Both the position numbers and the translations under genes were made by a program. The notes below the pieces were generated by a model. That model was not told the DNA's origin, did not search any database, and was given only the letters and a program-made list of their open reading frames with translations. Positions 1-48,539 of a stretch of 64,000 nucleotides of DNA are shown here, one piece after another; the stretch's first letter is position 1; the number at the start of each line of letters is the position of its first letter. The stretch is taken from assembly GCA_000309945.1 (NCBI GenBank), contig CM001633.1, positions 3,312,199 to 3,376,198 on the forward strand, given 5' to 3'. This DNA is from Leptolyngbyaceae cyanobacterium JSC-12. GTDB lineage: Bacteria; Cyanobacteriota; Cyanobacteriia; Leptolyngbyales; Leptolyngbyaceae.

Positions 1-97
1 CGGACTTGAACAAGATTGAGAAGTTTTGGGCGCGGTTGAAACATTACCTGCGCAAGTCCCTCCATCAGTTTCCAATGTTGTGGGATGCTGTCGATGA

Positions 98-44710: not shown

Positions 44711-45478
44711 ATGAAGAGGCTTGTTAAAGAAATTTTAGAGGCTTTAGGGTTGTACGTAAAATCAATGGAGCGAGTTCGTTTCGGCGTTGAGTGGAGTCAA
44801 GATATTCGATACTTGCTGAACAGTACTCCCTTGGATCTGGTCGTCGATGTTGGTGCTAATGTTGGACAGACGGTATACGAGGTCTTGAAGCATTTTCCCA
44901 AAAGTCGTATTTATTGCTTTGAACCTGTTCCTTCTACCTTCCAAAAATTGGCAGAACAAACCGTTATTTTCCCAAATGTATTTCCGCTTAATATGGCGCT
45001 TGGAGATCAGCCATCTACCTGTTCAATGACTGCAAAACCTTGTGCAGAGCAGAATACATTTGTCTTTGATGTCGATGTAGCAAGATCTAATAATACTGAA
45101 ATAATTGACGTACAAATCGATACTCTTGATCGATTTTGTGCCAGCCATGGCATTAATCAGATTAACCTCTTAAAAGTTGATACTGAAGGTTATGAAATGA
45201 AAGTTTTAAGAGGAGCAGAACAACTACTTTCCTCAAAGCGTATTGACTACATCTTGGTAGAATGCGACTTCCTTAAGCGTTCGGATGAACCTCATGGCAA
45301 CTTCGTTGAAATCTTCAATTACTTACAACTTTTTCACTACAATGTGGTCGCTTTTTACACAGGCGGTGTTGATAATTTAGGTTGGAAGTGGGGAGATGTT
45401 CTTTTTCGTAGAGTTTTCAACGAGGAGCCTAGGTTTTTTGCAATGTCCCCATTTTGTCAGCGATCGCAAAAAATCTAG
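44711..45478 (+). CDS. FkbM family methyltransferase
   Basis: 255 aa. The SAM-binding motif LVVDVGANVGQTVYEVLKHF is followed by IYCFEPVP and the conserved LLKVDTEGYEMKVLRGAEQLL of FkbM O-methyltransferases. AGGAG lies ten bases before the ATG. These enzymes methylate hydroxyls of sugars or natural products. Its codon use is more AT-rich than that of the neighbours, and the gene may be acquired. Whether it works with the upstream radical SAM protein (175 bp away) is open. Confidence 0.85.
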   Translation: MKRLVKEILEALGLYVKSMERVRFGVEWSQDIRYLLNSTPLDLVVDVGANVGQTVYEVLKHFPKSRIYCFEPVPSTFQKLAEQTVIFPNVFPLNMALGDQPSTCSMTAKPCAEQNTFVFDVDVARSNNTEIIDVQIDTLDRFCASHGINQINLLKVDTEGYEMKVLRGAEQLLSSKRIDYILVECDFLKRSDEPHGNFVEIFNYLQLFHYNVVAFYTGGVDNLGWKWGDVLFRRVFNEEPRFFAMSPFCQRSQKI

Positions 45479-45506
45479 GCTAACTCACTGAGCACCAGTT
45501 TGGTCC

Positions 45507-46376
45507 CTACTGAGACAGTAAACCCCTTTCAAGATGAATCACAGGTCTTTTGGTGGCAAGTCTGCGTCCAATCGCTACAGCAATAGGCTCCAAACTTTTG
45601 ACCAGCGCTGTCATGTCGTCTAATGACAATGCCTGTCTTGCATCCGAAGCAGACTTTTCCGGTACAGGATGACATTCGATGATTAAACCATCGGCTCCAC
45701 ACGCGATCGCAGCCCGCGCCAGATCAGGAATCAACTCGCGCTTGCCAGCCGCATGACTAGGATCCACAATTACAGGCAAGTGAGTTAACTGTTTCAACGC
45801 AACTACAGCCCCCAAATCCAACACATTCCGAGTGTAAGAGTCGAAACTACGAATCCCTCGCTCACACAACACCACATTAGGATTTCCATGCGCCAGGATA
45901 TATTCTGCTGCCATCACAAATTCCTCGATCGTCGCTGCTAACCCACGCTTCAGCAATACAGGCTTATTCACCTTACCTAGCGCTTTTAATAGCTCAAAAT
46001 TTTGCATGTTACGGCTACCAACTTGGAGCATATCAACGTAAGCACAGACAGGTTCCAGTTGCGCGATGGACATTACTTCTGTCACCACAGGCATTTCATA
46101 CTGTTGCCGCACCGATGCAAGAATTCGCAGCCCATCAACTCCCATCCCCTGAAAACTATAAGGGGAGGTGCGTGGCTTATACACACCTCCCCTCAGGGCT
46201 TGAACAGAAATGCTCGAAAGAGCTTGGGCAACTTGCTGCATTTGCTCTAAACTTTCCACCGCACAGGGTCCACCAATCAAGACAATATCCTGCCCTCCAA
46301 CTATAACCTGGTTAGACAGGTTGACCCTAGTACGATCCTCAGAATGGGATTTGGCTGTAAGTTTTGCGTCCAACAC
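45507..46376 (-). CDS. DAHP synthase, core-only (class I beta)
   Basis: 289 aa from a GTG at 46376 that follows TTAGGAG by eight bases; the longer ATG frame to 46460 runs through the terminator stem and is rejected. It makes 3-deoxy-D-arabino-heptulosonate-7-phosphate from PEP and erythrose-4-phosphate, the first shikimate step. Conserved parts are GGPCAVES, RGGVYKPRTSPYSFQG, VLLKRG, CERGIRSFD, IVDPSHAAGKRELI and IIECHPVPEKSASDARQAL. The N-terminal roughly 70-residue regulatory domain common in class I beta enzymes is absent. Two aromatic leader-peptide attenuators precede it (46421-46686). The symbol is left open because other DAHP synthases may exist in the genome. Confidence 0.92.
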   Translation of the reverse strand: MLDAKLTAKSHSEDRTRVNLSNQVIVGGQDIVLIGGPCAVESLEQMQQVAQALSSISVQALRGGVYKPRTSPYSFQGMGVDGLRILASVRQQYEMPVVTEVMSIAQLEPVCAYVDMLQVGSRNMQNFELLKALGKVNKPVLLKRGLAATIEEFVMAAEYILAHGNPNVVLCERGIRSFDSYTRNVLDLGAVVALKQLTHLPVIVDPSHAAGKRELIPDLARAAIACGADGLIIECHPVPEKSASDARQALSLDDMTALVKSLEPIAVAIGRRLATKRPVIHLERGLLSQ

Positions 46377-46420
46377 GATTGAGACTCCTAAGAAACTAGC
46401 AACAAACAAACGTGACAAAC

Positions 46421-46449
46421 AAAAAGCCCGGAACCAATGTCCCGGGCTA
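46421..46449 (-). terminator. Intrinsic terminator 2 of the DAHP synthase leader
   Basis: On the minus strand AGCCCGG (46448-46442) pairs with CCGGGCT (46431-46425) and is followed by TTTT and GTTTG. It lies 44 bp before the DAHP synthase start codon. Its 5' arm can instead pair with the antiterminator strand at 46471-46482. Confidence 0.88.
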
Positions 46450-46482
46450 GCGTGAATCAATGCACAACAAGCTCACCCGGGA
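46440..46482 (-). promoter_or_regulatory. Antiterminator 2
   Basis: TCCCGGGTGAGC (46482-46471) overlaps the last codons and stop of leader peptide 2. It pairs with GCTAGCCCGGGA (46451-46440) in 11 of 12 positions, one of them G-U. The second strand contains the whole 5' arm of terminator 2, so the two structures exclude each other. Confidence 0.8.
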
Positions 46483-46535
46483 TCTTCCCTGGTCCAAAAA
46501 TAAAAACCGTAAAACTCATGGTTAAGCTGATGCAT
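46473..46535 (-). CDS. Aromatic leader peptide 2
   Basis: A 20-codon frame, ATG at 46535 to TGA at 46473, reading MHQLNHE-FYGFYFW-TREDPG. Six of seven consecutive codons after residue 7 encode Phe, Tyr or Trp. A ribosome stalling there for lack of charged tRNA would leave the antiterminator strand in the last codons free. No strong ribosome-binding site is visible (GGAT about 14 bases upstream). An overlapping frame from the ATG at 46519 (MSFTVFIF...) is less rich in aromatic codons and is rejected. Confidence 0.82.
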   Translation of the reverse strand: MHQLNHEFYGFYFWTREDPG

Positions 46536-46564
46536 GGCAAGCAATATCCAACAATGTGAGCAAT

Positions 46565-46593
46565 CAAAAAGCCGCAGATTTTAGTCTGCGGCT
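46565..46593 (-). terminator. Intrinsic terminator 1 of the DAHP synthase leader
   Basis: On the minus strand AGCCGCAGA (46593-46585) pairs with TCTGCGGCT (46578-46570), loop CTAAAA, followed by TTTTTG. Its 5' arm overlaps the antiterminator 1 partner strand by six bases. Confidence 0.9.
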
Positions 46594-46641
46594 CACCCAG
46601 AGAAGCTCAGCAAATACACTTGCTCACTCCAGGTGAACCAC
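46588..46641 (-). promoter_or_regulatory. Antiterminator 1
   Basis: GTGGTTCACCTGGAG (46641-46627), exactly the last five codons of leader peptide 1, pairs with CTCTGGGTGAGCCGC (46602-46588) over 15 contiguous positions, 11 Watson-Crick and 4 G-U. The second strand includes six bases of the terminator 1 arm. This is the strand 2 to strand 3 relation of classical attenuators. Confidence 0.82.
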
Positions 46642-46686
46642 CAGATACCAAAAGTAAAAGTAAAAAACTCTAAGAATGACTGTCAC
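46624..46686 (-). CDS. Aromatic leader peptide 1
   Basis: A 20-codon frame from GTG (46686) to TGA (46624). Codons 8-14 are TTT TAC TTT TAC TTT TGG TAT, encoding FYFYFWY, seven aromatic residues in a row with all three shikimate end products. The peptide ends LVVHLE. There is no in-frame ATG upstream before a stop, so GTG is the best start; the ribosome-binding site is weak. Its role as a ribosome-stalling sensor is inferred from the codon run and the downstream structures. Confidence 0.82.
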   Translation of the reverse strand: MTVILRVFYFYFWYLVVHLE

Positions 46687-46767
46687 GGAGATCCAGCCTG
46701 TAATAAATTCCTATGGCTCGACCCTATCAAAGAAAATCTCTAAACGTCAAGTCCTGAACAGGCGAAT

Positions 46768-46796
46768 TTTATAAGGATCGTCCAAGAGTATAACAA
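46768..46796 (-). promoter_or_regulatory. Sigma-70-type promoter of the DAHP synthase leader
   Basis: On the minus strand TTGTTA (46796-46791), a 17-base spacer and TATAAA (46773-46768) fit a housekeeping promoter. Transcription would start near 46761, giving a leader of about 385 nt before the DAHP synthase codon 1. A second, weaker pair (TTGACG, 18 bases, TAGGGT) lies just downstream. Confidence 0.6.
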
Positions 46797-46961
46797 TTCA
46801 TTTAGCAACTGATTAATCAGGCTTGATATTGACAATCTAGAATAGTTTTTTCTAGAGAAAAACCTCAGTCTCTTGAGAGAGTCTTCAAGAAATTTCAGTA
46901 ATTATACTGTTCAACAGTTTTTAATCTGTTTACAATGAGAAATGCAGGGTGATGGTAATCT

Positions 46962-47204
46962 ATGGCATTGTACTCATTAAATAAAGAGTGGACGGTATTC
47001 CTGTCTCTAGGGGCATTACTTCTACCTCTAACGTCTGTATCCGCCCTCTATGAAAAATTGTTCAGGAATTTATCGATTTTCAGTATTACTGCTGAACAGA
47101 CAGAGATTTCAACCTTTAATACAAATTCTGCATCTGGGTATGAGCCGCCCCCCGATATTGGAAAACCTCGACGAACAGGAGGTTCGGGTGGGCGCATATC
47201 GTGA
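46962..47204 (+). CDS. Small exported hypothetical protein
   Basis: 80 aa with a hydrophobic segment (WTVFLSLGALLLPLTSVSAL, residues 10-29) that could be a signal peptide. The C-terminus, GYEPPPDIGKPRRTGGSGGR, is a motif I associate with exported cyanobacterial proteins. The function is unknown. It is divergent from the attenuated DAHP synthase leader. An inverted repeat (CGGTC...GACCG, about 47266-47301) follows it. Confidence 0.6.
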   Translation: MALYSLNKEWTVFLSLGALLLPLTSVSALYEKLFRNLSIFSITAEQTEISTFNTNSASGYEPPPDIGKPRRTGGSGGRIS

Positions 47205-47352
47205 ATGAGTAGCATTCCAGAAGGGGAATACTAACAAATACTAACGACTGACAAATACTAACGAACGGTCAGAAAGTGGCGCTTGCTCATTCTCCGACCG
47301 CTTATTAAGTTTGGTTGGTGGTAGTCACTAAATCATTATGAACTTTGATCTC

Positions 47353-47386
47353 GGAATGATGAGCAGCGATAGCTGCTCATCATTCC
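47353..47386 (-). terminator. Stem-loop downstream of petA
   Basis: GGAATGATGAGCAGC and GCTGCTCATCATTCC form a perfect 15-bp stem with loop GATA, 54 bp beyond the petA stop. There is no strong T-run, but it is the clear end structure of the petC-petA operon and could also stabilise the mRNA. Confidence 0.7.
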
Positions 47387-47439
47387 CTATTAAGGTTCAC
47401 CACTAGGTCTACTTTAGCTGACTTCTATCAACTGCAGGC

Positions 47440-48426
47440 TTAGAATTGCATTTCAGCTTCCTGCACTTTCTCAATCTGCTTCTTCTTGAGTACCAGCATG
47501 ATCTGAGCCAGCGTTACGATCGCGAAGAAAGCAAGCAACCCAAGGATGCGATTTGGGCTTTGTAGAACAATCTCAGCATCAACCTGACCAAAACCACCCA
47601 CATTGGGATTATCAGTTAACGCATCGCCTGACTTAACTTCCTGCCCTTCAGCAATTAGGAGGGAAGGCCCAGCAGGAATTGTTTCTACAACCGTAGTTCC
47701 ATCGGCTGTTTGGATCGTTACCTGATAGCCACCATCTTCTGCTTTAGTAATTTGGTTCACGGTTCCACTTGCAGACGCAGTGTACACTGCATTGTTACTC
47801 TTTTCGCCGTTGGGGTAAACTTGGCCACGTCCACGATTCCCCCCTACATGCACTGAGTACTTACCAAAAGAAATGGATTTGTCCGTGCTGGGATCTGGAG
47901 ATAAAATTGGAAAAGTAATTTCCTGATACTGCTCACCTGGTAAGGGTCCAACAACAATGATGTTTTCCTTGTCTTCGCTATAAGGCTGGAAGTAAACGTC
48001 CTGGACACGCTCTTTCATCTCTTCAGGAATGCGGTCTTCAGGAGCAAGTTTAAAGCCTTCGGGCAGCATCAAAACAGCGCCAACGTTTAAGGGTCCTTTT
48101 TCGCCACCTGCGACAACTTGTTGAATGCTTGTGTCGTAAGGGATTTTCACCACTGCTTCAAAGACGGTATCCGGCAAAACAGCTTGGGGGATTTCAACAT
48201 AGGTTGGTTTTGCCGCCAAGTGGCAGTTTGCGCAGACAATGCGTCCGGTTGCTTCACGCGGGGTTTCGTATGCTTGTTGAGCAAAGATGGGATAAGCGAT
48301 CGCGGCTTGAGGTAAAGCCAAATGACTGACCAAGAGTACAGCAATAGATGTGATCGTCACTGTAGCAATGTGCTTCAGGTTTGCGACTCTTTTCAGCAAT
48401 ACTTCTGTCAAAAAGCGTGTTCTCAT
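47440..48426 (-). CDS. petA: Cytochrome f
   Basis: 328 aa; the c-type haem subunit of the cytochrome b6f complex, passing electrons to plastocyanin or cytochrome c6. A signal peptide precedes [15 protein letters not shown]; the mature N-terminal Tyr is the axial haem ligand. The haem motif is [14 protein letters not shown]-terminal membrane anchor ([20 protein letters not shown]) is followed by a basic stromal tail. It follows petC by 113 bp. Confidence 0.97.
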
Positions 48427-48539
48427 GTCTGGTTCGGGTTCAATAGCGGGAACTTGGGTAAGATCGGAGGTTCATCAACAAACGTCAGAAGCAGCAAACT
48501 TCGATCAATCAAAAATTAAACGCAACGTGGGACAGAAGT

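Follow-up and report, generated by a model that had tools for sequence, protein, structure and literature searches.

The region upstream of a short DAHP synthase gene in Leptolyngbyaceae cyanobacterium JSC-12 most likely contains two ribosome-mediated transcription attenuators arranged one after the other, for which the supply of Phe, Tyr and Trp would be the signal. From the sequence evidence, we put the probability of this reading at about 0.92. The source genome consists of a single contig of 5.53 Mb, and the window, i.e., the whole stretch of DNA analyzed, comprises 64,000 nucleotides. The leader region is flanked by the cytochrome f gene (47440-48426, minus strand; called by eye from its translation) and the short DAHP synthase gene. 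On the minus strand, the order is promoter, leader 1 with terminator 1, leader 2 with terminator 2, and the short DAHP synthase gene. The features are as follows.

46721-46750, minus strand: promoter of the leader transcript (TTGACG at 46750-46745, 18-nt spacer, extended -10 element TGATAGGGT, hexamer at 46726-46721)
46624-46686, minus strand: leader peptide 1, MTVILRVFYFYFWYLVVHLE, 20 codons, GTG start at 46686, TGA stop at 46626-46624
46645-46665, minus strand: sensor of leader 1, seven consecutive Phe/Tyr/Trp codons (FYFYFWY), read from the sequence
46627-46641, minus strand: strand 2 of module 1 (5' arm of antiterminator 1, inside the codons for VVHLE), from its 15 pairs with 46588-46602 and covariation
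46588-46602, minus strand: strand 3 of module 1 (3' arm of antiterminator 1, overlapping the 5' arm of terminator 1), from alignment and covariation
46566-46594, minus strand: intrinsic terminator 1, hairpin 46594-46569 (10 pairs) and U tract, from an independent scan
46473-46535, minus strand: leader peptide 2, MHQLNHEFYGFYFWTREDPG, 20 codons, ATG start at 46535, TGA stop at 46475-46473
46494-46514, minus strand: sensor of leader 2, codon run FYGFYFW, read from the sequence
46471-46482, minus strand: strand 2 of module 2 (stop codon included), from its 11 of 12 pairs with 46440-46451
46440-46451, minus strand: strand 3 of module 2, from alignment and pairing with strand 2
46421-46448, minus strand: intrinsic terminator 2, hairpin 46448-46425 (10 pairs) and U tract, from an independent scan
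45507-46376, minus strand: short DAHP synthase gene, 289 amino acids, GTG start at 46376, GGAG at 46388-46385, catalytic domain only

The 289-amino-acid protein was identified as a type I DAHP synthase, with scores above the curated cut-offs for both TIGR01361 and PRK08673, in agreement with an earlier note on this DNA that had named the gene behind the leaders as DAHP synthase. By this gene, the closest named relative was a Leptolyngbyaceae cyanobacterium (84% identity). The short enzyme possesses the catalytic domain (PF00793) and lacks the ferredoxin-like domain PF18152, which is present in a long paralogue (354 amino acids) encoded elsewhere in the same genome. The ferredoxin-like domain is the seat of feedback inhibition in such DAHP synthases, and core-only forms tend toward being unregulated. 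Because the short enzyme is without this regulatory domain, its control may fall to the leader, which would supply what the paralogue achieves via feedback inhibition.

Each leader frame has a codon run that specifies the end products of the pathway under control, and both 20-codon frames described in the earlier note, with FYFYFWY at 46665-46645 and FYGFYFW at 46514-46494, were present. In this genome, the start codon of leader 1 is GTG, and no clear ribosome-binding site precedes it. The counterparts of leader 1 in relatives end in YFYFWF.VVHRE followed by the stop codon (typical form M...SYFYFWFRVVHRE), and those of leader 2 end in WFYGFYFWPRxSSG followed by the stop codon (typical form M...SWFYGFYFWPRxSSG). 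Of the distinct leader sequences, 87 of 89 for leader 1 and 90 of 94 for leader 2 contained Phe, Tyr and Trp together. The position of the run was also conserved, the final Trp being located 8 codons ahead of the stop in 70 of the 89 leader-1 sequences and 7 codons ahead in 74 of the 94 leader-2 sequences. The Tyr codons varied synonymously (84 TAC and 111 TAT in leader 1; 115 TAC and 75 TAT in leader 2), and the ends of the leader-1 peptides (VHRE, VHLE, AAHPAR) changed along with the RNA pairing partner. Pairs of short frames in which 6 or more of 8 codons were aromatic were found at 67 of 100 real loci, compared with 0.1% of upstream sequences resampled with the same dinucleotide composition. 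Within the source genome itself, nine further FYFW codon runs were found, none of which was accompanied by a leader ORF and a terminator.

The distribution of the system was determined using the upstream regions of relatives in whole genomes and at 80 named loci. Scanning for short frames in which five or more of eight codons were aromatic detected both leaders at 100 loci, and covariance models added six (L017, L047, L060, L072, L100 and L120). There were 113 loci of the short paralogue, four of which were cut by contig ends, leaving 109 whose upstream DNA was long enough. Of these 109 loci, among which a few genomes are counted twice (e.g., L003 and L044), 106 had both leaders together with their terminators and antiterminators, and the other three (L032, L034 and L111) had one module. 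The single-module loci were of both kinds, with module 2 only in L032, L111 and L155 and module 1 only in L034 and L156. The loci span many families, including Nostoc, Calothrix, Scytonema, Microcoleus, Spirulina, Hydrococcus and Leptolyngbya-like genera, so that the aromatic codon runs and stems, the conservation of which the earlier note had suggested checking, were kept across many cyanobacterial families. No leaders were found upstream of five long paralogues (L036-L039 and L041) or of the more distant L043. Upstream of another long form (L035), one weak leader candidate was supported by neither covariance model.

In a survey of 386 genomes sampled across the phylum, 38 had the short gene (E at most 1e-100) and 38 had module 1; module 2 (E<1e-5) was found in 37 and all three in 36, with one match per module per genome. 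The exceptions comprised G192, with module 2 only, and G165, with module 1 only, as well as G084 and G425, described below; in G084, the only module 1 that lacks a complete gene lies on a decayed DAHP synthase. In 14 small genomes, all from one other family, module 2 matched weakly (E 4e-4 to 9e-3); these matches were taken as chance and were not counted. By this comparison of sequences, the tandem arrangement is associated one-to-one with the short DAHP synthase gene. An origin of the two modules by duplication is possible.

An intrinsic terminator lies between the leader ORF and the structural gene in both modules, and the two terminators listed in the earlier note were recovered by an independent scan. 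The pairings given in that note were likewise correct: between 46641-46627 and 46602-46588 there are 15 contiguous pairs (11 Watson-Crick and 4 G-U), and 11 of 12 positions pair between 46482-46471 and 46451-46440. The compensatory stem changes that it had proposed looking for were seen in antiterminators and terminators alike, as indicated by pair counts from alignments of module 1 (A2, 52 sequences) and module 2 (A3, 58 sequences). In antiterminator 1, 85.4% of cells were paired across the 52 sequences, compared with 32-48% when the arms were slid. Double changes occurred in 10 of its 15 pairs (58 cells, compared with 23.7 in shuffles); for example, GGUUCACC/GGUGAACC was replaced with GGUUCGCC/GGCGAACC in several lineages. 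Terminator 1 was paired in 99.3% of cells, with double changes in five pairs (52 loci). In antiterminator 2, 92.1% of cells were paired and 19 double-change cells were counted, compared with 5.8 in shuffles (58 sequences), these changes being located in just 3 of 9 pairs, no more pairs than in shuffles. Terminator 2 was paired in 92.2% of cells, with 38 double-change cells compared with 9.1, and double changes in 7 of 10 pairs (58 loci).

Covariation indicated that the antiterminator begins right after the regulatory codons and shares strand 3 with the terminator. In module 1, it overlaps the 5' arm of the terminator only at the base (AGCCGC). In module 2, strand 2 (GUUCCGGGU) almost copies strand 4 (GUUCCGGGC) in most relatives, and therefore both compete for strand 3. 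The arrangement has every sequence-level feature of a trp/phe-type attenuator, the protector or pause hairpin (1:2) apart. A 6-pair hairpin, GUUCAC/GUGAAU, surrounds the stop codon of leader 1; 93% of its cells were kept and no covariation was detected. Its GTGA was retained in L006, L022 and L049, where the stop codon of leader 1 has moved upstream.

When module 1 was folded to equilibrium, an 8-pair core of the terminator persisted beside a shortened antiterminator. Further, the equilibrium fold of full-length module 2 favored the terminator whatever the position of the ribosome. Because the equilibrium folds keep the terminators, the switch must depend on the order of folding; according to these models, it would be kinetic, as in known attenuators. 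When strand 3 had been made and strand 4 had not, with a ribosome in mid-run, the antiterminator was predicted in 52 of 52 module-1 and 54 of 58 module-2 sequences. With the ribosome at the stop codon, the probability of the antiterminator was zero, which is a consequence of masking strand 2 and not independent evidence.

A promoter precedes the leader ORF, as indicated by sequence conservation rather than by a mapped start. Of 96 non-redundant loci, 92 had TTGACn-16..18-TAnnnT ahead of leader 1, compared with 0.7% in resampled sequence, and 89 had the form with an extended -10, compared with 0.04%. From terminator 1 to the gene, all 96 loci lacked this pattern. Thus, a start downstream of both structures, which the earlier note had regarded as evidence against its proposal, was not indicated, as the sole conserved promoter precedes both. 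The conserved system reaches beyond the coordinates of that note, upstream to the promoter (46750-46721).

On the basis of these features, transcription would start about 25 bases upstream of leader 1. When Phe-, Tyr- and Trp-tRNAs are charged, a ribosome translating the leader would reach the stop codon and mask strand 2. Strand 3 would then be free to pair with strand 4 as the terminator, and RNA polymerase would stop. When any of the three amino acids is scarce, the ribosome would stall while still within the aromatic run and short of strand 2. That strand would take strand 3 before strand 4 exists, the base of the terminator would not close and the polymerase would continue. Leader 2 would repeat the test, and the short DAHP synthase gene would be reached only by polymerases that pass both stages. 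The two stages would multiply each other's effect on readthrough. The control would probably let the cell make the short DAHP synthase only when some aromatic amino acid is short. We consider it somewhat more probable than the opposite that the two attenuators, both responding to the same signal, act as a multiplicative switch that covers all three aromatic amino acids, is the main regulatory input of a DAHP synthase without an allosteric domain, is old in cyanobacteria and represents an RNA class not in Rfam.

The existence of single-module loci (L032, L111 and L155; L034 and L156) is what would be expected if one module alone regulated the gene, probably leader 2, which is nearest to it, while the other was a decaying or constitutive relic. 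However, these loci are few and of both kinds, and both modules show covariation and conserved codons at more than 100 loci, features that relics would lose; we therefore regard a single functional module as quite improbable. It is unlikely, too, that the leaders respond to a general slowdown of translation (darkness, nitrogen or carbon stress, antibiotics) and not to aromatic amino acids in particular. Any slowing within the run would presumably act alike, as is inherent in the design, but the codons are specifically those for Phe, Tyr and Trp in almost all distinct leaders (87/89 and 90/94), and the controlled gene encodes the entry to aromatic synthesis.

Aromatic genes of other bacteria are under the control of T-boxes, and the leader RNA could by analogy bind a tRNA or a metabolite as a T-box or riboswitch, the peptides being incidental. 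We give this very little weight, since no Rfam family matched the leader even with a permissive threshold in the window, and what is conserved is a set of aromatic codons in frame and, after them, a short terminator switch, with no large conserved aptamer. Finally, single frames with at least 5 aromatic codons in 8 occurred in 16% of resampled upstream regions, as a chance occurrence of such codons next to ordinary terminators, with no regulatory role, would allow. Conservation at more than 100 loci, together with covariation and a one-to-one association with just one gene, refutes this explanation to the point that its probability is negligible.

Leader-peptide attenuation is known mainly from Proteobacteria and Actinobacteria, plus a few genes of Firmicutes (PMC2965389), and a 2016 survey of leader genes stated that there were "no reliable data" on this mechanism in cyanobacteria (PMC4833913). 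We found no cyanobacterial leader-peptide attenuator in the open-access literature, in accordance with the earlier note, which knew of none; subscription papers and supplements were outside the scope of this search and priority is uncertain. An Rfam search, also suggested by that note, gave no match within 45000-48500 of the window or at the leaders of six loci, and the T-box covariance model was likewise unmatched. Near the loci of relatives, Rfam matched a Cyano-1 RNA (L020:57-128, plus strand) and a cobalamin riboswitch (L109:639-782, minus strand), both unrelated to the leaders.

For mechanism and target gene, the closest relative is the aroR leader of the aroF operon of Corynebacterium glutamicum. 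In that system (Neshat et al., 2014, as described in PMC11802643 and PMC4046766), Phe limitation is reported to lead to ribosome stalling and readthrough, and an aromatic-codon leader peptide (Phe-Tyr-Phe) likewise precedes a DAHP synthase gene. However, aroR is a single leader from another phylum, and its run comprises three aromatic codons, none of them for Trp. The cyanobacterial locus has two leaders; in most cases each of them contains Phe, Tyr and Trp, with 5-9 aromatic codons. The enterobacterial trp and pheA leaders similarly have regulatory codons followed by a mutually exclusive antiterminator and intrinsic terminator, with a stop codon sited so that the terminating ribosome covers strand 2. 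In contrast, they are single attenuators, each for one amino acid and ahead of a different gene, whereas the present leaders are in tandem and match no Rfam leader family.

For the tandem design, which the earlier note had called unusual, the one precedent that we found is Salmonella mgtCBR. Its leader also has two short ORFs, each tied to an attenuator, and the two act independently and additively; they answer ATP and proline, and the authors call the case singular (PMC3641672). Unlike these two different signals, the same three aromatic codon types occur in both cyanobacterial leaders. From its sequence, what appears new in the present system is that it is cyanobacterial, tandem and would read all three aromatic amino acids at each stage. 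Attenuation kept in many families would show that cyanobacteria use such control, and therefore that transcription and translation are timed closely enough for a ribosome to steer the polymerase. Further, a tandem design with one signal poses a testable question, namely why there are two. The system also bears on engineering, as the production of aromatics in cyanobacteria has to release control at the DAHP synthase step.

Several further observations were made at these loci. The two covariance models cross-matched weakly in the window (E 0.02 and 0.35; 46566-46671 and 46421-46514, minus strand), as an origin of the modules by duplication would predict. In L154 (G084:C48:72500-75500), leader 1 and its antiterminator are fused to a decayed DAHP synthase, leader 2 and the start of the gene having been deleted. 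In L157 (G425:C1:3950300-3958300), about 6 kb of other ORFs splits the short DAHP synthase gene, and both attenuators adjoin its separated 5' part. Within the DAHP synthase gene of the window (46159-46195, minus strand), a strong hairpin, GAGGGGAGGUGUG...CACGCACCUCCCCUU, arises from the codons for LRGGVYKPRTSPY (-27 kcal/mol; z about -5 compared with random synonymous codons). The hairpin precedes a T-rich stretch and might be an intragenic terminator. A similarly strong intragenic hairpin was found in L003, L005, L006, L033, L093, L096 and L102, the mean z across 96 loci being only -1.
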